A DNA stretch of 52,576 nt, taken from the NCBI GenBank assembly GCA_020996635.1, contig JAJJBE010000106.1, positions 1 through 52,576 on the forward strand, read 5' to 3'. Made by a program: the position numbers and the translations under genes. The notes beneath the pieces were generated by a model. That model worked only from the letters and a program-made list of their open reading frames with translations, ran no database searches and was not told the DNA's origin. Below, one piece after another: positions 1,164 to 29,001 of the stretch. The stretch is from Bathymodiolus brooksi methanotrophic gill symbiont (GTDB lineage: Bacteria > Pseudomonadota > Gammaproteobacteria > Methylococcales > Methylomonadaceae). Within the stretch, counting starts at the first letter, position 1, and the number at the start of each line of letters is the position of its first letter.

Positions 1164-1305
1164 ACACAAATCTACCATAAAAACTGATCTCAAGAAGAGT
1201 AAAAAACTAATAGTTTCACTGAAATATTTTTTCATTATTTTTTAAATCAGACGTATAAATAAAATCTATAGGATTTGCTGTGGAATAAATAAACTTCTTG
1301 AAGAG

Positions 1306-1411
1306 CCTAACGCCGCAAACACTTGCCCAAAACTCAGCCCTGTTTTTATGCTACGCTTATAGCATAAAAACAGGGCTGAGTTTTGGGTCAATGTGATTTG
1401 CCTTGTTCGGC
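1306..1411 (-). other. attC recombination site 2
   Basis: CCTAACG at 1306 and GTTCGGC at 1405 enclose a very long perfect stem: a 27-bp arm beginning CCCAAAACTCAGCCCTG pairs with the arm ending CAGGGCTGAGTTTTGGG around an 8-base loop. The L,D-transpeptidase stop codon lies four bases inside the cassette from this site. Confidence 0.8.
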
Positions 1412-1414
1412 AAA

Positions 1415-1936
1415 TCATGGCTCAATAACTATCTTCGTTCCAATTTTTATTGATGATGCAATTTCCTCTATAGCAGTGTTTGATACCGCTATACATCCCT
1501 CAGTCCAGTCAGTCCTAATAAGTAAAGGTGACAGCCACCCAAAACAATTTGGCATACCATGCACCATAATATCGCCGCCTGGTTCTTTCCCTGCTTTTAT
1601 GGCTTGTATTTTATCCATTGCATTTGGGTAAGAAATACGAATAGCTTTGTGATATGAGCTATTTGGATGTTTCCAGTCAATAAAATATATCCCTTCAGGA
1701 GTTTTTCCATCACCCTCTTTTGTTTTATGAGCTTTAGGATTTCTACCAAGTGAAATTGAGTATGATTTGATATGATTTCCATTATTAAATAATGACAACA
1801 TCCTTTGTTCTTTTTTCACTACAATCTTATCTATTTCCTTGATCTTCTCCTGAAATAACCTAGGATGTAATTTATCAAAATAAATTGCAATAAAAAATAC
1901 AGCTACGCAAATAAATAGAATTTTCTTTAACATCAT
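1415..1936 (-). CDS. L,D-transpeptidase catalytic-domain (YkuD) protein
   Basis: The 173-residue protein starts with a membrane anchor (about 4-20, ILFICVAVFFIAIYF) followed by a YkuD domain. The catalytic signature is present: His126-Gly127 (DIMVHGMP) and WTEGCIAVS with the nucleophile Cys148. Such enzymes cross-link or modify peptidoglycan, or attach proteins to it, from the periplasmic face. The start overlaps the stop of the preceding gene (1933-1936, ATGA), so translation is probably coupled. It is the last gene of a multi-gene cassette ending four bases from attC 2. LysM or other wall-binding domains are absent. Confidence 0.85.
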   Translation of the reverse strand: MMLKKILFICVAVFFIAIYFDKLHPRLFQEKIKEIDKIVVKKEQRMLSLFNNGNHIKSYSISLGRNPKAHKTKEGDGKTPEGIYFIDWKHPNSSYHKAIRISYPNAMDKIQAIKAGKEPGGDIMVHGMPNCFGWLSPLLIRTDWTEGCIAVSNTAIEEIASSIKIGTKIVIEP

Positions 1937-2472
1937 TCAATTAACACTTCTGATCCGTCCATTTTACCATCATCAGTTGAATCACTTTCAAAATATTGAA
2001 TGTTTTCTTCAGATGTAAAAATATTACCATTTACTTCATTTCGCTTGTCGTATATTACATTCATGTTTGAATCAAACTTTAGAATACCTTCTTTAATATA
2101 ATTATTCGTTAGTTCTATGTCTGTTTTTAGTTGTTCTAGATCTTTATCAGAAAGGCTAGAAATAATAGTACTATCTAGCATCATCAGTCCATTTTCGGTT
2201 AACTTTAATGGTAATTTTTCTTCAGCAGGTTCATTGTTGTTTCTATTTTTCTTCACAACAATTACTTTATCATACGCACTAACCAAATAGTATTTGGTTG
2301 TTTCTCCATTATTACCCTTATATAAATAATATGGTGTTTCACCATCTTCAATGAAATAGTAACCAGCGATAGTAGTGTAACTTAATGTTGGATACTTAGT
2401 ATTTAACTCGTACTCTGCATCACTAGCAACAATCGGAGGATAAGAATACCATTCCTTATTTATTTTAGACAT
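1933..2472 (-). CDS. Unrecognised protein, C-terminal part of a frameshifted membrane-anchored gene
   Basis: From ATG at 2472 this frame gives 179 residues (MSKINKEWYSYPP...). The same frame stays open upstream to about 2930 without a stop, coding for a hydrophobic anchor and a soluble domain described in the next entry. The ATG at 2472 is therefore probably internal. The protein is rich in Tyr, Asn, Lys and Glu, ends in acidic residues, and matches no family I know. It overlaps the L,D-transpeptidase start by four bases, indicating one transcript and probably a shared envelope role. Confidence 0.6.
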   Translation of the reverse strand: MSKINKEWYSYPPIVASDAEYELNTKYPTLSYTTIAGYYFIEDGETPYYLYKGNNGETTKYYLVSAYDKVIVVKKNRNNNEPAEEKLPLKLTENGLMMLDSTIISSLSDKDLEQLKTDIELTNNYIKEGILKFDSNMNVIYDKRNEVNGNIFTSEENIQYFESDSTDDGKMDGSEVLIE

Positions 2473-2948
2473 TCTTCCTAATTCTTTTTCTCCAGAAGAA
2501 TACTCTCGAAATATAGAAACCCCTACAATTTTATTATTGGCATATAAGGGAATGAATTGTGAAGAAGCTTCTATTAGATCAAAAAAATTATTTACGCTTA
2601 TAGATTCACCAGCCTCTACATCGTAGATAAAACCATCCTCTAGCCCTGCTATGGAGAAGATTTCATTGTAAAACTTTGATGCTAGTTTTTCAGCTTCCTT
2701 ATCTGTTTTCGCAATGACTTTGATATCTTTAGATGTTATTTTTTTTTGCTCTTTCTTAACCTCATGTAAATCTATGCTTTCTTCAGTTAAGCTAACAACA
2801 CTATGTTTGACTGACTCGGTTAAAGGTTTTATGTTTTTTACTGGTTCTATTTTAAGTTCATCTCCAAAATAAAATAATGCAAATACGACTAAGCCAATTC
2901 CAAAAATAATAATTATAATAATATGTTTTTTTTCATTAGTGCATCCAT
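2473..2948 (-). pseudogene. 5' part of the same gene: N-terminal membrane anchor separated by a frameshift at an A8 run
   Basis: ATG codons at 2948 and 2936 begin MDALMKKN, but this frame stops after a few codons. The -1 frame reads KHIIIIIIFGIGLVVFALFY, a transmembrane segment, then about 140 residues running in frame into the ORF starting at 2472. The switch point is the run of eight A (T run 2926-2933 on the plus strand), read as AAA AAA AAC in the zero frame. One extra A, or -1 slippage, restores a single protein of about 335 residues. A terminator-like hairpin lies directly upstream. Confidence 0.55.
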
Positions 2949-2950
2949 AA

Positions 2951-2976
2951 AAAGGTAGCTCTTACGAGCTACCTTT
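2951..2976 (-). terminator. Perfect 11-bp hairpin between two cassette genes
   Basis: AAAGGTAGCTC and GAGCTACCTTT pair perfectly around TTAC. Read leftward it is followed by a short T run just before the ATG at 2948. It can end transcripts of the C39-like gene or act as an attenuator inside the cassette. Confidence 0.65.
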
Positions 2977-2981
2977 TATTA

Positions 2982-3263
2982 CTATACTTTCGGGCTACTG
3001 TTATAAAGATACATATGTTCACGTAGCCAAGGTAATCTACTGCCTGTAGGCTTCCAATATGATGCCAATTCATTTTGGCTCATGTATCTCCTTGGGCTAA
3101 TTGCTTGCCTCCTAACAATACCACCAGCGCTTGATCCTGTAATATTAACATTTCCATAAATTATAGCTGGGCTGAAATTTTTACCCATAGTTGTAGCCAA
3201 TGTAGAAATGGCATTTTTTATGGTTTTATCTTTCCTTTCTTTCATTGTCACGTTGAGTCCCAA
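2982..3263 (-). CDS. C-terminal part of a C39-like peptidase, separated by a frameshift
   Basis: This open frame (MGLNVTMKERKDKTIKNAIS...) is the -1 continuation of the C39-like ORF at 3290-3628. Between the two, the -1 frame reads KKLVDYINRTQKLGLNVTMK without a stop. The residue pattern, ending in NELASYWKPTGSRLPWLREH, is plausible for the second half of a papain-fold domain. I expect no independent translation; it is one gene with the entry at 3290. Confidence 0.5.
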   Translation of the reverse strand: MGLNVTMKERKDKTIKNAISTLATTMGKNFSPAIIYGNVNITGSSAGGIVRRQAISPRRYMSQNELASYWKPTGSRLPWLREHMYLYNSSPKV

Positions 3264-3289
3264 CTTTTGGGTTCTATTGATATAATCAA

Positions 3290-3628
3290 CTAATTTTTTT
3301 GCCCTTTCTTTAGTTCCTCCGTTGTCAATCCACTGGTTTTTCCACCAGTAGTATTAATATATGCATGAATACTGGCTGGATCATATTTTCTAGCGTTGCC
3401 TTTTTTATGAGTTTCCCAAAACATTTGCATAGCTGTTGTTGTAGAACCACAAGTATAATTCGTTGGTTGTCCGTACTGTGGTACACCAAACCAACGAGCA
3501 ACTAATTTTCCTTTTATTTTTTGGTCGTATGTACTCGAAAGGTAAGGGTATCTCTCCCATCCTGCGTGTACAGCACTTACTGAAAATGCAGATATTGCAA
3601 CAATTATTAATATACTTTTTTTAAACAT
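3290..3628 (-). CDS. Secreted C39-like cysteine peptidase, N-terminal part (frameshifted)
   Basis: I start it at ATG 3628 (MFKKSILIIVAISAFSVSAV), because GAGGAAA lies at the right distance and a clear signal peptide ends at AVHA; an upstream ATG at 3649 is less likely. The mature part contains WFGVPQYGQPTNYTCGSTTT, the catalytic-Cys region of C39_2-like papain-fold peptidases. The frame ends at a run of seven A (3294-3300) with TAG; the -1 frame continues into 2982-3263, where the rest of the domain should be. It heads a three-gene cassette of exported proteins. Confidence 0.7.
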   Translation of the reverse strand: MFKKSILIIVAISAFSVSAVHAGWERYPYLSSTYDQKIKGKLVARWFGVPQYGQPTNYTCGSTTTAMQMFWETHKKGNARKYDPASIHAYINTTGGKTSGLTTEELKKGQKN

Positions 3629-3685
3629 ATTATTTTCCTCATACCCCAATTAAAAAATGACCAGACAACGACAGGGCTTTCATTG

Positions 3686-3813
3686 CCTAACACCAAATTC
3701 AGTGGCCGCTGGCAGATATACGATAAACTCTACTAACACACTGAACTTTGATATAAAATGACCTCTGGAAACGAGTGGCGCTGCCAGCGGTCGACTGCAA
3801 TTTTTTGTTATGT
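3686..3813 (-). other. attC recombination site 3
   Basis: CCTAACA (3686) and GTTATGT (3807) bound about 128 bp with matching arms CAGTGGCCGCTGGCAG...CTGCCAGCGGTCGACTGC. It is the longest attC here, of VCR-like size. The KAP gene stop lies five bases inside the next cassette. Confidence 0.75.
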
Positions 3814-3817
3814 GCTT

Positions 3818-5134
3818 TCAACGTTTGAATGTTTCTAACCATTCACAAATATCGACTACTGCCGACCTGCCGTGACCTCTTCCTTCAGAAAAATTGCCAT
3901 GTGTTAAAAGCTCTTTTACTTCATCTTCACCAGAAAGATAGTATTTCAATAACCACCGAAGAGGATGACCTTCGGGTTTATAATCCTTCCAATGGTCTGT
4001 CTCAAATGATTGTAACTGAGTTTCTTTTATTGCTTTTTCATAAGATATATTTCCTAAGGCTAGCTTTCTATAAGTATTAGGATATAACACTTTAATAATG
4101 CACAAATAAATTGAAAGCCATGAATAATCAGGGTTTAAGTTTCCATCAGTTAAATTATGAATGATTGCGTAATTTGATAAACTCCGCTCTATTTCTCTCA
4201 ATGAAATATTGTAATGATCAATTAGCTCTTCATATAATTCAAACCCTACCTGCTCAGTTCTGGTTTTTATCTCAAAATCCATTCTTTTTAAGCAATCATT
4301 TAAATATTTTTTTCCATTACTGGTATATCCGTCTGGTGATTTTGGTAACCCAGTCCAAATATGAACAAATTTTTGTAGATATTTAGTAGAGTCAATTCCT
4401 GCGCCATACCTTGAACGTATAACCTCATCCATTTGTTCTCTATTCATGACTAGAACAAACACAATTCCGGGAATTGAAAATATGTGTTTGATTTTTTCCA
4501 GTAAATCGAGAGCAAATGATGGTTTACATCTATCTAATTCATCTATGATAAATACAATTTTATTACCACCACCTACTGTTTCAGCTGTTGCTGATAAAGT
4601 AATTTTGAACTCTTCAATTGATGCTTTATCATCTTTAAGTGAATCTAAACGACTAGATATATAACTATCGGACATATCTGTAATTTCTTTTTCTGCCCCA
4701 GCTCCCTCCAAAACTGTTTCATCCAATACACCAGCAGTTAATGCTTTTAACCCTATTCTAATACTGGCTTTGCCGATAGTTTTAATTGCAGAAACCGCTT
4801 TATTTTTGAATTCTTCTTTAGTTTCAGTTTCTTCATCCAATAATGAATAGACCTCTCCAACCAATGCCAGCAGAGGATCATCTAGGAAATCATTTTGAAA
4901 GGCATCAAAATAGATACTTTCGATATTTTGTTCTTTAAGCATTCCTTGCCACATTTTAACAAATGTAGTCTTACCCTCTCCCCAAGGAGCATCAATAGCT
5001 AAAACCAATTCATCACTAACATTTTCGATAAGATTACTTAATTTTTCAGCAAAGTTTTTTCTTTGAAAAATATCCTTTTCTGGTAGAAAACCTTCATATT
5101 CTTCAATTTCTACTGGTGATGGAGTTAGTTTCAT
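3818..5134 (-). CDS. KAP-family P-loop NTPase
   Basis: This 438-residue protein carries a Walker A loop APWGEGKTTF (about 49-58) and a Walker B strand KIVFIIDELDRCKPS (about 192-206). The segment after Walker B, FSIPGIVFVLVMNREQM, and the YLQKFVHIW motif are typical of KAP ATPases (STAND-like signalling NTPases named for Kidins220/ARMS and PifA). The family often has transmembrane helices inserted between Walker A and B; here that stretch (about 115-145) is only mildly hydrophobic. Bacterial members include the phage-exclusion protein PifA, so a defence role is possible but unproven. It is alone in its cassette, bounded by attC 3 and attC 4. Confidence 0.85.
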   Translation of the reverse strand: MKLTPSPVEIEEYEGFLPEKDIFQRKNFAEKLSNLIENVSDELVLAIDAPWGEGKTTFVKMWQGMLKEQNIESIYFDAFQNDFLDDPLLALVGEVYSLLDEETETKEEFKNKAVSAIKTIGKASIRIGLKALTAGVLDETVLEGAGAEKEITDMSDSYISSRLDSLKDDKASIEEFKITLSATAETVGGGNKIVFIIDELDRCKPSFALDLLEKIKHIFSIPGIVFVLVMNREQMDEVIRSRYGAGIDSTKYLQKFVHIWTGLPKSPDGYTSNGKKYLNDCLKRMDFEIKTRTEQVGFELYEELIDHYNISLREIERSLSNYAIIHNLTDGNLNPDYSWLSIYLCIIKVLYPNTYRKLALGNISYEKAIKETQLQSFETDHWKDYKPEGHPLRWLLKYYLSGEDEVKELLTHGNFSEGRGHGRSAVVDICEWLETFKR

Positions 5135-6889: not shown

Positions 6890-7282
6890 TCATGTCCTGC
6901 CATCAGGAGGGTACCTTAAATGTTGATCCATAAATTCAGGTTTAAATTTATTTATGTGGTTTTCATACATTTCTTGCTCACCTATATTTAATTCACAAGG
7001 CTCATATGAGGTAAAATCAAAAGGATGCTCTATACGATATTCATCACCTGAGTATAAAGAATCATACTCACTAAATAATTTAGAAAAATCGTGTATGTTT
7101 TTTACATTACCTTTATTTTTCAAAATGGCGTATTTAACAAATAACTCTAATGCATGATAAAGTTGGTAGGCTACTGCATTTTGATATTCACCTGTATTAT
7201 TGTTATTGTTCGCAGAAACCTCACCAATATCCAAGTATGCCATACACATTAAAAAGTATGACTCATAATTATTTTCACTCAT
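6890..7282 (-). CDS. HEPN-like protein
   Basis: The 130-residue product has a helical core EYQNAVAYQLYHALELFVKY followed by KNIHDFSKLFSEY. A Tyr/His-rich helix ending in a short helix with HD(F/L)xxL is common in HEPN-domain proteins that accompany toxin-antitoxin or defence systems. The classical RX4-6H ribonuclease motif is not obvious. The start overlaps the stop of the 71-aa gene upstream (7279-7282), as in two-gene toxin-antitoxin operons. HEPN is my best reading, not a certainty. Confidence 0.55.
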   Translation of the reverse strand: MSENNYESYFLMCMAYLDIGEVSANNNNNTGEYQNAVAYQLYHALELFVKYAILKNKGNVKNIHDFSKLFSEYDSLYSGDEYRIEHPFDFTSYEPCELNIGEQEMYENHINKFKPEFMDQHLRYPPDGRT

Positions 7283-7494
7283 TTTTTTATATATCCATTT
7301 CCATCAGCTGCTCTAGTTATACTTTTACCAGGATTACTTTTTGCCCACGCCATTGCTTCTTGAAAGGTTTCAAAAAAATCAGGATTTTTGACCTCATATG
7401 AATTATCAGCAAAACCTGGCGCACTCATAAAATTGGGAAGTCCATCCTCATCGTGACCTCCCATATGATCTTCAATATATTGCCAATCCCCCAT
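7279..7494 (-). CDS. Small protein (71 aa) coupled to the HEPN-like gene
   Basis: The product begins MGDWQYIEDHMGGHDEDGLP and ends AKSNPGKSITRAADGNGYIKK. It overlaps the downstream HEPN-like gene by four bases, so the two are translated together. It is of antitoxin size, but no DNA-binding or nucleotidyltransferase motif can be seen. It is the first gene after attC 6. Confidence 0.6.
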   Translation of the reverse strand: MGDWQYIEDHMGGHDEDGLPNFMSAPGFADNSYEVKNPDFFETFQEAMAWAKSNPGKSITRAADGNGYIKK

Positions 7495-7998: not shown

Positions 7999-8103
7999 CC
8001 TAACGCCCACATTAAGCGGACAGAAATTGGGCGATATTTTTGCGCCCTTTGTTTTTGCAAAAATGACGAACTGTTTATGTTCCGTTTAAATTGCTTGTTA
8101 GGT
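7999..8103 (-). other. attC recombination site 7
   Basis: CCTAACG (7999) and GTTAGGT (8097) bound arms CATTAAGCGGACAG and a looser CTGTTTATGTTCCGTTTAA. The stop codon of the DUF4238 gene is inside the right core (TTA 8098-8100). Confidence 0.8.
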
Positions 8104-9036
8104 TCGTTTTAATAGTGTGCTGGCAGGACTGATTGTTCCACCTTTTGCTATATAATTGAAATTGTTTTTTGCAGCAAAGACTCTTTGGTAACTATTCGCA
8201 ATAATTTTACTATTTAGAATGGCAACTAAGAATTCATTAGCTTCCTTTACTGTATCTTCACGATCAAATTCACCAACAAGAGCAATATTTTTCGTTATTG
8301 GAAAATAGACCATTGTATCTTTTAAACCAAACCCTGGAGACATAAACGGTGGCACTTGCGCCGGGTCATGCCAAGCTAAGCTTACTGGATTATCAGTAGT
8401 AATAAATTCTCCCGATTCTTTTCCTGCTTTCACTAATGTCCAGTTTCTCCTGTGAAGTAACTCGGTAATCTGCTGCATTCCGATTAACTCCATATGAATC
8501 TGGTGCTCTTTGTTTACGGATATATCGAACTCTTGCCTTTCAACAAACTCTTTCATCTCTTCATAGGTTTTACCATTGGAAATATCTTCACCAGTATCTG
8601 CTTTTACTTGTGCTATTTGGGATTCCCAGCGTTCTTTAGTTTCCATTGTCATTGCCATCGTCATTTTAGCAATTTGTATTAGGGGTTTAGATAAGTGTTC
8701 ACGCATTTCAGGTGACTTGATTGCAAGCATACCAATCAATTCAAGAATCAAATCTTTTGTTTCACCCGAAAAATCCAATGTTTCAGCTATATTTTTTAGC
8801 GCATGAGCGACTTTACTTTCAAATTCAGATTGTTGTTTTTCAATGATTTCAGGATCTATGCCATCAATTTCGACTCTATTGAAATCACGCATTCCTCCAA
8901 CATTTCTTGGAATGGTTTCAAATTTTTTCAATTCTTTAAGATCTATTACCGTAAGTTTAGATTTCTTAGAGTTTCCCTGAGTAAAGCCTTTCAAATAACA
9001 CTGAGACAAATAATGATGATGCCTTGATATACTCAA
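8098..9036 (-). CDS. DUF4238 family protein
   Basis: I place the start at TTG 9036 because AGGAG lies six bases upstream; TTG 9042 would touch the ribosome site. The protein (about 312 aa) begins SISRHHHYLSQCYLKGF and later has ESGEFITTDNPVSLAW, both hallmarks of DUF4238 proteins. The function of the family is unknown; members are frequent in accessory and defence-rich regions. The stop codon TAA is supplied by the attC core itself, so gene and recombination site overlap by a few bases. It is the sole gene of its cassette. Confidence 0.8.
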   Translation of the reverse strand: MSISRHHHYLSQCYLKGFTQGNSKKSKLTVIDLKELKKFETIPRNVGGMRDFNRVEIDGIDPEIIEKQQSEFESKVAHALKNIAETLDFSGETKDLILELIGMLAIKSPEMREHLSKPLIQIAKMTMAMTMETKERWESQIAQVKADTGEDISNGKTYEEMKEFVERQEFDISVNKEHQIHMELIGMQQITELLHRRNWTLVKAGKESGEFITTDNPVSLAWHDPAQVPPFMSPGFGLKDTMVYFPITKNIALVGEFDREDTVKEANEFLVAILNSKIIANSYQRVFAAKNNFNYIAKGGTISPASTLLKRT

Positions 9037-9073
9037 TTTCAACTCCTAAATTGCGACAATTCCGATGTGAACC

Positions 9074-9274
9074 TAACACCGCGGTGACTGGCGTGTTTGC
9101 CTTGGTAATGGAGTGCGAGCACGGACGATTACCAAGGCAAACATGCCAGTCGAACGCTTAGTTATTTAGGTTCTGGAGCCATGCGACAGATCCTTAATAA
9201 CTGAGCTTTCGACTGGGCACCAGTCACCGCGGTGTTATTGAGGAACTGGAGCGCAGCTCCAGTTCCTCAATAAC
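9074..9274 (-). repeat. ORF-less hairpin cassette, copy 1 (201 bp, identical to 10091-10291)
   Basis: The unit runs from TAACACCGCGG to CAATAAC, core to core, so it is a complete integron cassette with no reading frame. Part a (about 9072-9166) is an attC: arms GACTGGCGTGTTTGCC... and ...GGCAAACATGCCAGTC form a 24-bp stem with one mismatch. Part b (about 9198-9237) is a mini-attC in opposite orientation that reuses AACACCGCGGTGACTGG. Part c (9234-9274) is a perfect palindrome: 19-bp arms GTTATTGAGGAACTGGAGC around GCA. All three hairpins have TAAC/GTTA at their feet. Confidence 0.85.
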
Positions 9275-9366: not shown

Positions 9367-10062
9367 TTATTCACTTGAACTATTATCCGAAGAAGAAGAA
9401 TTAGTATTAACTGACCCTGCTTCTTTTTGAGCCGCTGTTGTTCCTGGAGCTGCTTGCATAGTTGGAATAGTAGCACTATCAAATGTGGGTACTTTCTGCA
9501 TTATTGGAATTGTAGCACTTTCCAAACAAGGTTTAGATTTAGGGTCAATATCAGACACACTGACTAAAGTCTCTTTTTTACTCATTTTTGATCCTTCTTT
9601 ATTAATGTTGAGCATTACAAAAATAACCATCATAATTATTGCAATACTAAATAAAAAAGCTACTAAATAGTTTAGCCTATTATTCCATATTGATAATTTA
9701 TTTTTCTCAGTAGCTGCCGATGCTTTTTTATTTATATAATAATCAGTTGCAATATCTAGCTGATGGTCAATAGCTCTGTTACTTATTAAATATGCAATCA
9801 AAGATGAAATAATAGTTAAAAGAAAAGCTCCCCACGAACCAATTATTAACCATAAATAACTCGCCATTTTAATAGGGACTACAAATTTAAAAAATGTTAG
9901 CGAAAGAGCTAATCCAGCTGATGACAGAGACAAAATTATTTTATCATAATTTTCTGTATTTGATAACTGCCTTTTCAACAACTCATCCCTAAAAGAATCA
10001 TAAAGCTCAACAGCTCGCTTTTGCTCTTCCTCATTTCGCTCAATTAGATTTGTGTTATCCAT
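9367..10062 (-). CDS. Membrane protein of unknown function, cassette-borne
   Basis: This 231-residue protein has a charged N-terminus, a hydrophobic pair at about 48-66 and 70-95 (LWLIIGSWGAFLLTIISSLI), and a third segment near 131-152 (LVAFLFSIAIIMMVIFVML). The C-terminal third is polar, Ser/Asn-rich, and contains two copies of SATIPxMQ (SATIPIMQ, SATIPTMQ). The layout recalls small sensor-like proteins that hold a SLATT-type two-helix domain, but I cannot confirm that. It is the only gene in a cassette lying between the two copies of the 201-bp hairpin cassette. Confidence 0.65.
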   Translation of the reverse strand: MDNTNLIERNEEEQKRAVELYDSFRDELLKRQLSNTENYDKIILSLSSAGLALSLTFFKFVVPIKMASYLWLIIGSWGAFLLTIISSLIAYLISNRAIDHQLDIATDYYINKKASAATEKNKLSIWNNRLNYLVAFLFSIAIIMMVIFVMLNINKEGSKMSKKETLVSVSDIDPKSKPCLESATIPIMQKVPTFDSATIPTMQAAPGTTAAQKEAGSVNTNSSSSDNSSSE

Positions 10063-10090
10063 ATTTATTTTCTAGATACTTCCGTACATT

Positions 10091-10291
10091 TAACACCGCG
10101 GTGACTGGCGTGTTTGCCTTGGTAATGGAGTGCGAGCACGGACGATTACCAAGGCAAACATGCCAGTCGAACGCTTAGTTATTTAGGTTCTGGAGCCATG
10201 CGACAGATCCTTAATAACTGAGCTTTCGACTGGGCACCAGTCACCGCGGTGTTATTGAGGAACTGGAGCGCAGCTCCAGTTCCTCAATAAC
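10091..10291 (-). repeat. ORF-less hairpin cassette, copy 2 (201 bp), first position of the array
   Basis: This is letter-for-letter the same as 9074-9274 over 201 bp, with the same core-to-core limits. It contains an attC (about 10090-10183), an inverted mini-attC and a perfect 41-bp palindrome (10251-10291). It is the cassette next to the attI position, the place of the most recent insertion in an integron. The complete identity of the two copies points to a recent second insertion or duplication. Confidence 0.85.
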
Positions 10292-10483
10292 TATTACTTC
10301 TAAAGTAACTTCGCCCTACCTGCTCAATACCAACTCACTTTTCCTTCCTATTTAAATTAAAGCTCAAATTAGCTCTATTTTTCTAATAGGAAGGCAAATA
10401 AACTGCATAATTCGATATTAGCGGGTAAATCAGGCTAAATTGCTTTAATATTTATTAGCTTAGTTTATTCACTAGGTAATATT
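10292..10483. other. Candidate attI / cassette-promoter region of a decayed integron
   Basis: The stretch lies between the last core site (TAAC ending at 10291) and the integrase-like remnant. In an integron this interval holds attI and the promoters of intI and of the cassettes. I see a small palindrome TTACTT-CT-AAAGTAA next to the boundary and AT-rich sequence beyond, but no convincing promoter. The assignment rests on position only. Confidence 0.35.
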
Positions 10484-10612
10484 ATGTCAAGCTCTGATAA
10501 TCGTAAACTCATGGATCATGTGCAACAGCTCTTGCGTGTTAAACATTATGCGATCATAAAACCAGCTGATCTCTTGATTTTTTGTGTTTGCTATTTTATG
10601 AATTTCTGCTAA
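10484..10612 (+). pseudogene. Remnant of an integron integrase (intI), N-terminal piece only
   Basis: ATG at 10484 opens 42 codons starting MSSSDNRKLMDHVQQLLRVK and continuing HYAI. This corresponds to the conserved start of the SAM-like N-terminal domain of integron integrases (L-x-V-x-x-x-L/I-R-x-K/R-H-Y-S/A-I, normally followed by R-T-E-Q-A-Y). After HYAI the resemblance ends and a stop follows. No catalytic Arg/His/Tyr part is found before amt. Its place and direction, next to the array and pointing away from it, are those of intI. The match is from memory of the family. Confidence 0.55.
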
Positions 10613-10660
10613 TAAACCTTCACTAGCCCTGGCTTTGTTTGAAACACGTTCTCAAGTTGA

Positions 10661-10797
10661 TATACCCAAAATAAATGAAGATGCGTGATTTAACTAAATG
10701 GAACAGCGGTCTTCAGCCGCTGCAATCACATATCAAGCATTCCGCGACTAAAGATCGCGGCTCCATTAAGCCTGCATCTTCAAGTAGCTTGGGTATA
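10661..10797. repeat. MITE-like element, TATACCC family, copy 1
   Basis: Ends TATACCCAA...GAAGATGC (left) and GCATCTTC...TTGGGTATA (right) are imperfect inverted repeats of about 28 bases. Inside are two hairpins: GCGGTCTTCAGCCGC and CCGCGACTAAAGATCGCGG. The same ends occur at 29649-29799 with a different interior, so this is a dispersed non-autonomous element. It sits in the decayed stretch behind the integrase remnant. Confidence 0.7.
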
Positions 10798-10928
10798 TTA
10801 TTCATTTACGCCTTCACATTAATTTTATCGTATTGATCACGTGCTTCAATAATCATTAAAACTTTATGATTTATACTTTAACTGAGTTTTATTTACTGTA
10901 AAAACAACCATCGTTTTTACGCATAAAA

Positions 10929-10959
10929 AAGGCGTTACTAATAAAATCAGTAACGCCTT
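10929..10959 (-). terminator. Terminator of the glnK-amt operon
   Basis: AAGGCGTTACT and AGTAACGCCTT form an 11-bp stem around a 9-base loop, 30 bases after the amt stop. It is flanked by A and T runs, so it could work in both directions. Confidence 0.8.
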
Positions 10960-10989
10960 AATTAAATTTCTAAATTAATTTAGAAAATA

Positions 10990-12240
10990 CTATTTACCTG
11001 AATTTGTAAACTCTGGGTAAGCTTCCATTCCACATTCAGAGTAATCAACCCCTTGGTACTCTTCTTCTTCAGTGACTCGAATACCCATGACTAATTTTAT
11101 GATAGTCCATGCAATAAAACTTGAGATAAAGACAAAAGCAAAAATAGTGACAATACCAATTAACTGTGCAGTCAGTGTTGAGTCATCATTAGAAATACAA
11201 ACGGCTAATAATCCCCATATACCAACAACACCATGTACTGATAACGCACCCACTGGATCATCAATTTTTAGTTTATCAAAACCAATAATAGAGAAAACTA
11301 CGATAATACCAGCGATTGCACCAATAATTGCCGCCAATAAAGGGGGTGGTGTTAAAGGTTCTGCTGTAATAGCAACTAAGCCTGCTAATGCACCATTTAA
11401 AGACATGGATAAATCCGCTTTACCAAATAAAAGGTGTGCCGTTAATAAAGCTGAAATAACACCTGCTGCCGCTGCTGCATTGGTATTAACAAAAATTAAT
11501 GCGACTGCATTTGCATTTTCAATTCCATGAATCGCAAGTTGTGACCCACCATTAAAACCAAACCAACCCATCCATAAAATGAACATACCTAAAGTTGCTA
11601 AAGGCATATTACACCCAGGAATTGGGTAGATTTCACCATTTTCTCCATATTTACCTTTACGTGCGCCTAATAATAGAACACCCGCTAATGCAGCAGTCGC
11701 ACCACAAAGATGCACCACACCAGAACCCGCAAAATCAAGAAAACCTAGTTGATCTAAAAACCCAGCACCCCATTTCCAGTAACCTTGTACAGGATAAATA
11801 AAACCTGTCATTACCACTGAAAATACTAAGAATGCCCATAGTTTCATACGCTCAGCGACTGCTCCCGATACGATAGACATCGCTGTGGCAACAAAAACCA
11901 CTTGGAAGAAAAAGTCAGCCATTTTAGAATAATAAGTATCGCCATTGCTCGCTAGTACATCAGCAACGCTATGATCCCCTTCAATTAAAAAGCTAATGCC
12001 AGGCCAAATGCTATTGACTGCTTCTACAGGGTACATTAAATTGTAACCGCACAGCATATACATGGTGCAGGCTATGGCAAATAATGCGACGTTTTTAATT
12101 AAAATTTCAGCGGTATTTTTTGCTCTGACTAATCCTGCCTCTAACATAGAGAAACCGGCTGCCATCCACATAACAAATGCACCACAAATTAAAAAATAAA
12201 ATGTATCTAGTGCATAACTTAATTCTGTTACTTGTTCCAC
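10990..12240 (-). CDS. amt: Ammonium transporter
   Basis: This 416-residue protein has the Amt/Rh fold: about eleven membrane segments, the pore histidines His177 (VVHLCGATAAL) and His336 (LSVHGVVGIWG), and the recruitment Asp169 (FLDFAGSG). It conducts NH4+/NH3 across the inner membrane and is gated by the PII protein. It follows glnK by 18 bases in one operon, the standard pairing. The N-terminus has no long signal peptide, as in many bacterial Amt proteins. A C-terminal tail binding GlnK is present (KLVMGIRVTEEEEYQGVDYS). Confidence 0.97.
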   Translation of the reverse strand: MEQVTELSYALDTFYFLICGAFVMWMAAGFSMLEAGLVRAKNTAEILIKNVALFAIACTMYMLCGYNLMYPVEAVNSIWPGISFLIEGDHSVADVLASNGDTYYSKMADFFFQVVFVATAMSIVSGAVAERMKLWAFLVFSVVMTGFIYPVQGYWKWGAGFLDQLGFLDFAGSGVVHLCGATAALAGVLLLGARKGKYGENGEIYPIPGCNMPLATLGMFILWMGWFGFNGGSQLAIHGIENANAVALIFVNTNAAAAAGVISALLTAHLLFGKADLSMSLNGALAGLVAITAEPLTPPPLLAAIIGAIAGIIVVFSIIGFDKLKIDDPVGALSVHGVVGIWGLLAVCISNDDSTLTAQLIGIVTIFAFVFISSFIAWTIIKLVMGIRVTEEEEYQGVDYSECGMEAYPEFTNSGK

Positions 12241-28514: not shown

Positions 28515-28515
28515 T

Positions 28516-29001
28516 TTAGAAAAGTGGCTCTAACTGAGCGTCTAAAAATGCTAACTGCTGCTGATTATTAATAATAGTAATAACCAGCCATGCTGTTTGT
28601 GCTGGCGCATGGTAAGTTTGTAAAAGCTGAGGTTTATTTTGCATATTAACGACCTCATAAAAATGACCGTCTTGTTGTGCAAAATAAATGGCATAAAGAT
28701 TTGGATTAATTTGTAACGTCTGTACAAAATCTTGTAAAGCAGGGTGTTTTACCTTAAAGCTAATAGGGCCTTTCAGGGCTTCATGCCCACGTTTAGCTGA
28801 TAATATTTTGCTAGTATGCTGTCCTTTAACTTTTAAGTGTTCTGTTATATTTTTACTAATTAACTTAAAAGTATTATGCGTGGATTCTAACGCTAATTTT
28901 TGACTGAAATAGTACTGGAAAAATAGCAAGGAGAATGCAACAATTCCGAATAATATGAGCATTACACTTAAAATACTCGCTCTAATGAATATTTTTTGCA
29001 C
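28516..29001 (-). CDS. N-terminal sensor part of the same frameshifted HD-GYP receptor
   Basis: The 161-residue ORF has an uncleaved signal anchor (ASILSVMLILFGIVAFSLLFF) and the first half of a periplasmic dCache domain (LYAIYFAQQDGHFYEVVNMQ). It stops with TAA right where the +1 frame continues as FSKVVAEKTYNPH. Removing one T from CTTTTC would give PLSKVVAEKTYNP and a single protein of about 780 residues. Confidence 0.75.
   Translation of the reverse strand: MQKIFIRASILSVMLILFGIVAFSLLFFQYYFSQKLALESTHNTFKLISKNITEHLKVKGQHTSKILSAKRGHEALKGPISFKVKHPALQDFVQTLQINPNLYAIYFAQQDGHFYEVVNMQNKPQLLQTYHAPAQTAWLVITIINNQQQLAFLDAQLEPLF

Follow-up and report, generated by a model that had tools for sequence, protein, structure and literature searches.

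Three genes for predicted exported proteins, one of them a YkuD enzyme, share an integron cassette of a methanotrophic gill symbiont and recur on Thiothrix plasmids

The window (the whole 52,576-bp contig analysed here, from a source genome of 2.43 Mb in 268 contigs) carries three genes within a single integron gene cassette, encoding a signal-peptide protein with a C39-like cysteine motif (gene 1), a membrane-anchored protein (gene 2) and a YkuD enzyme (gene 3; Table 1). The analysis confirms the cassette, its three genes and their co-inheritance, and the trio is carried by two kinds of mobile DNA, this cassette and plasmids of Thiothrix. Judging by their N-terminal sequences, all three products would be exported, from which a periplasmic role follows, and the trio looks like a rare, mobile and undescribed operon that modifies the envelope. 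The reading that we prefer, a mobile accessory operon editing the cell envelope, is given a probability of about 40%.

Table 1 Features of the trio cassette, its integron setting and neighbouring cassettes (window coordinates unless another contig is named).
Feature	Position	Strand	Description and basis
Whole gene cassette with trio	1311..3690	-	2,380 bp; starts at the cut between G and TTAGGC in the attC before it and ends with the last G of its own attC; boundaries from core sites in the sequence and covariance model R1
attC of preceding cassette (5′ boundary)	3685..3814	-	R1 41.2 bits, E=1.2e-8; hairpin z=-2.5
attC of trio cassette (3′ boundary)	1305..1412	-	perfect stem of unusual length; R1 47.1 bits, E=2.6e-10; hairpin z=-11
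Gene 1	2985..3628	-	signal peptide and C39-like cysteine motif YTCG; frame broken near 3310; probable pseudogene; reading frames, weak C39-clan Pfam match, Thiothrix alignment
Hairpin between genes 1 and 2	2950..2977	-	12 bp, perfect, U tract; terminator- or attenuator-like; fold -18.3 kcal/mol
Gene 2	1933..2949	-	N-terminal transmembrane anchor and extracytoplasmic domain, no family; reading frames; remote Thiothrix counterpart
Gene 3	1415..1936	-	intact membrane-anchored YkuD enzyme, Csd6/Pgp2/Bd1075/DpaA hydrolase branch; Pfam and PDB matches, tree
KAP NTPase, adjacent cassette	3818-5134	-	PADLOC candidate defence family PDC-S20, E=3e-99
HEPN-domain protein	6890-7282	-	4-bp overlap with small upstream ORF 7279-7494 (71 aa)
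DUF4238 protein, cassette	8098-9042	-	PADLOC DUF4238-Pers, E=5e-102
dCTP deaminase, cassette near integrase	L011 (G000:C100) 10076-11716	-	PADLOC dCTPase, E=6e-136
IntI integrase, intact	G000:C100:13695-14645		436.6 bits against cut-off 265; attC on same contig

The cassette array, read on the minus strand, fills the first 10 kb of the window; the remainder is chromosome, with glnK/amtB, fab genes, tldD/pmbA and a type I restriction system (names read from translations). An initial scan for attC sites by regular expression and folding overlooked most of them and was replaced by a covariance model (R1), trained on five attC-like hairpins with both sites bounding the trio left out. This model identified seven attC sites in the window and another six on the integrase contig; across both strands of the whole genome it gave 42 matches (E≤0.1), spread over ~10 contigs. 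As in other chromosomal-integron cassettes, the trio is bounded by attC sites in the orientation of the array, lies on the strand of the array and shares its genome with an IntI integrase that has attC sites beside it. The original prediction placed the three genes in one cassette, and this is borne out because all three lie between two attC sites recovered by a model that had not been trained on them. The gene content differs from that of most cassettes, which carry one gene and only occasionally more (PMC12409362). Where the array ends, an ORF (9367-10062) is flanked by two identical direct repeats of 201 nt (9074-9274 and 10091-10291) with many internal inverted repeats; these resemble a duplication or a small mobile repeat.

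PADLOC defence models are matched by several further cassettes of this integron, including the one directly adjacent to the trio (Table 1), and two methyltransferase genes with defence-model matches (PADLOC) are found further along the array on the integrase contig. The HEPN-domain protein, which also counts among the defence-like products of the neighbouring cassettes, and the 71-aa product of the ORF overlapping its gene are possibly a toxin-antitoxin-like pair.

Gene 3 overlaps gene 2 by 4 bp and encodes an intact protein, anchored at its N-terminus, that belongs to the YkuD family (PF03734; E=4.2e-24, 86.2 bits against a cut-off of 23.4) and has HG and WTEGC motifs. The only solved structures matched by the window protein at E≤0.01 are Bd1075, DpaA, Pgp2 and Csd6; the Thiothrix protein retrieves the same set, with Bd1075 and Csd6 at E=0.04, and Bacillus subtilis YkuD is matched by the window protein alone, below threshold (E ~0.6-0.8). 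Csd6, Pgp2 and Bd1075 are LD-carboxypeptidases of the YkuD family and DpaA is an amidase of the same family (PMC10653827). In both trio proteins the catalytic motif is WTxGC[IV]A (GCIAV and GCVAL), with Ala two residues past the catalytic Cys as in DpaA, the position occupied by Arg in many LD-transpeptidases (PMC10653827). Earlier annotation of this gene as a YkuD L,D-transpeptidase overlapping gene 2 is therefore correct for the family and the overlap but doubtful for the activity: since the PDB matches are LD-carboxypeptidases and DpaA, and Ala is found at Cys+2, hydrolysis at meso-diaminopimelate is a better guess than transpeptidation.

Gene 3 resembles DpaA (YafK/LdtF), the YkuD amidase with which E. 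coli releases Braun's lipoprotein, in its fold, the Ala at Cys+2 and an aligned GD-TPEG block with the preceding Lys, and DpaA is among its best PDB matches. However, it scores only 44.7 bits against the NF040599 equivalog cut-off of 365, has ~170 residues and lies in an operon with two exported partners. Csd6, Pgp2 and Bd1075 likewise belong to the set of solved structures outside which neither YkuD protein of the trio has a significant match, although the two trio proteins are shorter, and the insert separating their catalytic His from the Cys (HG...WTxGC) is longer. The subfamily of gene 3 is that of short 'WTxGCIAV' YkuD proteins (up to 48% identity), which are widespread in Gammaproteobacteria as single genes; at E≤1e-15, 48 of the 369 genomes sampled from the class have a YkuD relative and, unlike the trio, none of 29 such loci has a homologue of gene 1 or gene 2 within 1.5 kb on either side. 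In the tree the YkuD protein of the window stands apart from that of Thiothrix, but placing them in one clade does not fit significantly worse (p=0.17).

The product of gene 1 begins with a signal peptide (MFKKSILIIVAISAFSVSAVHAG) and contains the motif QPTNYTCGS, but its gene is not one open frame: frame 0 stops near 3310 and the remainder (3314-2985), starting with ERAKKLVDYINRTQ, runs in frame 2. For searches, the protein was read through this junction with an X. DUF3335 (C39-like) matches the window protein at E=0.055 and Peptidase_C39_2 the Thiothrix protein at E=0.26, both sub-threshold; no C39 model in Pfam exceeds its threshold for either protein, and a search of the PDB gave no significant match. 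Following its signal peptide, the Thiothrix protein has YTCG, GSHYY and IHDS (IYIHDS) motifs, a possible Cys-His-Asp set, as well as an EF-hand-like segment, DTNKDKSVTPDEL. The YTCG nucleophile motif is shared with C39-like papain-fold enzymes (Peptidase_C39_2, DUF3335), and the motifs of the Thiothrix protein, with its later His and Asp, fit a papain-like peptidase, but both proteins score under the Pfam thresholds. Alignment indicates that the segment with the candidate His and Asp is absent from the window copy, where only the Cys remains. Because of this loss and the frameshift, the window gene is probably an inactive pseudogene. Of the secreted C39-like peptidase proposed earlier, the signal peptide and YTCG stand, whereas the C39 label is sub-threshold and the reading frame is divided in two.

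Gene 2 has an open frame on the minus strand from ~2952 to 1933 with a hydrophobic, transmembrane stretch at its N-terminus, and no match was found among the Pfam and NCBIfam families searched or, with the protein as a profile, among PDB structures, in agreement with its initial description as a membrane-anchored protein of no known family. PepSY, suggested by the strand pattern, was ruled out (no Pfam match; hhalign probability 0.07 against 12 PepSY domains). The AlphaFold model obtained from the single sequence has a pLDDT of 38. Before residue 160 the frame offers no ATG, GTG or TTG start. The likely ATG (2949-2947) precedes a run of eight A and is offset by one base from the reading frame of the rest of the gene; Thiothrix gene 2 requires no frame slip. 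The start (2936-2949, minus strand) reads ATG AAA AAA AAC and includes a slippery heptamer, A AAA AAC, exactly where a shift of -1 would lead back into the open frame.

In tblastn searches of 72,556 plasmids, gene 1 matched two records only, both from Thiothrix (E=2e-5 and 3e-5). On NZ_CP053483.1 gene 1 is followed by a gene for a protein of 305 residues, whose N-terminus holds a membrane segment, and then by a YkuD gene overlapping that gene by ATGA; on NZ_CP133219.1 the same trio spans the start of the circular record. These plasmids, from two species, have other genes in common and were counted as one occurrence. Order, orientation, the overlap of gene 2 with gene 3 (4 bp, ATGA) and the position of the hairpin between genes 1 and 2 all match the window, although the Thiothrix hairpin (perfect, 13 bp) is unrelated in sequence. 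Identity between window and Thiothrix proteins is 32% for gene 1, ~23% for gene 2 and 45% for gene 3. Gene 2 is the weak link in the homology of the trio (pairwise E=0.015; full local score reached by 2 of 500 shuffles, or 15 of 500 without the membrane segment), but its position between genes 1 and 3 and a conserved WxxYPP block make kinship probable.

The Thiothrix frames are open and unbroken throughout. Synonymous/non-synonymous codon differences between the two Thiothrix copies number 2/1 for gene 1, 10/8 for the tail of gene 2 and 2/4 for gene 3, suggestive of mild constraint on gene 2; genes 1 and 3 differ too little to judge. The RefSeq start of WP_202719279 (NZ_CP053483.1; L014 926-1025) is probably too late, as an in-frame upstream ATG adds a signal peptide like that of its homologue in the window. 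The test set beforehand, recurrence of the trio in order, thus succeeded once outside the source genome, on these plasmids, and the opposite outcome, that the three genes never co-occur elsewhere, did not arise. The accompanying expectation that recurrence would be seen particularly within cassettes failed: covariance model R1 detected no attC in the 11.5 kb examined of the 12.1-kb T. subterranea plasmid, and gene 1 was convincing in no other sampled genome.

Only two independent occurrences of the trio are known. Gene 1 was sought with the single protein in 201 genomes of the family and with a two-row profile in 301 genomes of the order, 369 of the class, 399 of the phylum and 18 of the genus, giving its own genome plus one weak, short match in the order sample (E=0.006); these samples overlap and have the window as sole positive control, so the counts speak to rarity rather than absence. 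Beyond the window genome and Thiothrix, gene 1 was not found among the genomes, phages and plasmids searched, five scans of viral contigs and tblastn searches of phages gave no match, and a search aimed at relatives of Thiothrix via the family of another genome, covering two genomes, returned nothing. Two Chitinophagaceae loci from a scan of genome contigs were dismissed as PpiC-type foldases sharing a QYSQPTEY stretch by chance.

The copy of the trio in the window is probably decaying, or partly broken, given the frameshift and missing His/Asp segment of gene 1 and the one-base fault at the start of gene 2. Sequencing error may be the cause, but two frame faults within 2.4 kb look like decay, as only one further frameshift was noticed in the remaining ~50 kb. 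This is a one-base frameshift inside CCACTTTTCTAAAGTGG, at about 28515-28516, that splits a sensor gene with an HD-GYP-type domain.

The preferred reading starts from what is observed: one cassette, operon order, conservation in Thiothrix, export signals and placement of gene 3 in the hydrolase branch of YkuD. Gene 1 would be the main product, with the inter-gene hairpin passing only part of transcription on to genes 2 and 3, and would leave the cytoplasm as a cysteine peptidase of the papain type or as a protein resembling one. For gene 2 we infer a role as a partner anchored in the inner membrane and facing the periplasm, where it would hold or control the gene 1 product. Gene 3 would be a membrane-bound hydrolase cutting at meso-diaminopimelate in peptidoglycan, as do LD-carboxypeptidases and DpaA, and would thereby shorten stem peptides or release protein bound to the wall. 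Jointly, the three may alter the wall or proteins attached to it, the likeliest purpose being protection against envelope attack.

Defence against phages at the level of the envelope, with the trio blocking phage entry or lysis through a change in peptidoglycan or periplasmic proteins, is an unlikely possibility, brought to mind by the defence-model matches of other cassettes in the same integron and by the known role of chromosomal integrons as reservoirs of defence systems (PMC12409362). Proximity within an array is nevertheless weak evidence because cassettes are gathered independently; PADLOC has no match for genes 2 and 3 of the window or genes 1 and 2 of Thiothrix, and defence systems carried by integrons mostly have one or two genes (PMC12409362). 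Rather unlikely is an antibacterial system in which gene 1 supplies an excess of a secreted papain-like toxin acting on wall or protein, while genes 2 and 3 protect the producer as anchored inhibitor and wall modifier. A hairpin after gene 1 would suit an abundant exported product with scarcer partners, the location on plasmids and in a cassette is mobile, and papain-like C39 and L,D-peptidase domains are known among polymorphic-toxin domains (PMC3482391). Against this, no secretion apparatus or release gene lies beside the trio, gene 1 has a plain signal peptide, directing its product to the periplasm, and no match to a toxin-delivery domain, and the nearest kin of gene 3 are housekeeping wall hydrolases, not toxins; a seemingly broken gene 1 beside an intact gene 3 in the window is consistent with loss of a toxin but does not prove it.

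The function first put forward, peptide processing or wall attachment in the periplasm, retains its periplasmic part from the N-termini, while the peptidase is probably inactive in the window and attachment has become improbable. In that scheme gene 1 would cleave gene 2 and gene 3 would link the product to peptidoglycan, in keeping with three exported products encoded together and with YkuD enzymes (LdtA-C; Lpp) that attach proteins to peptidoglycan via a C-terminal Lys (PMC10653827). But the C-termini of gene 2 (VLIE and QYTP) have no terminal Lys, and gene 3 lies in the hydrolytic YkuD branch with Ala in place of the Arg of many LD-transpeptidases, which makes attachment less likely than trimming or unlinking. 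Most improbable of all is that three unrelated genes, the first of them decayed, share a cassette by chance. The two frame faults, the lack of another trio in the sampled genomes and the frequency of solitary YkuD relatives all fit such an origin; it is contradicted by the Thiothrix plasmids, on which a counterpart of gene 2 stands between homologues of genes 1 and 3, with the same order, overlap and hairpin position.

The occurrence of a conserved operon of three genes for exported proteins, both as one cassette and on plasmids, suggests an envelope function that selection can act on, and the defence-like neighbouring cassettes make a function in envelope-level defence worth an assay, for which the Thiothrix copy, with its unbroken frames, is suitable experimental material. 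A review notes a conspicuous absence from integrons of defence systems with three or more genes (PMC12409362). It is conceivable, though doubtful at present, that the trio is a mobile periplasmic system unlike any described, in which a papain-like protein, an anchored partner and a wall hydrolase would jointly protect the envelope against phages or competing bacteria and could be packed into a single cassette.
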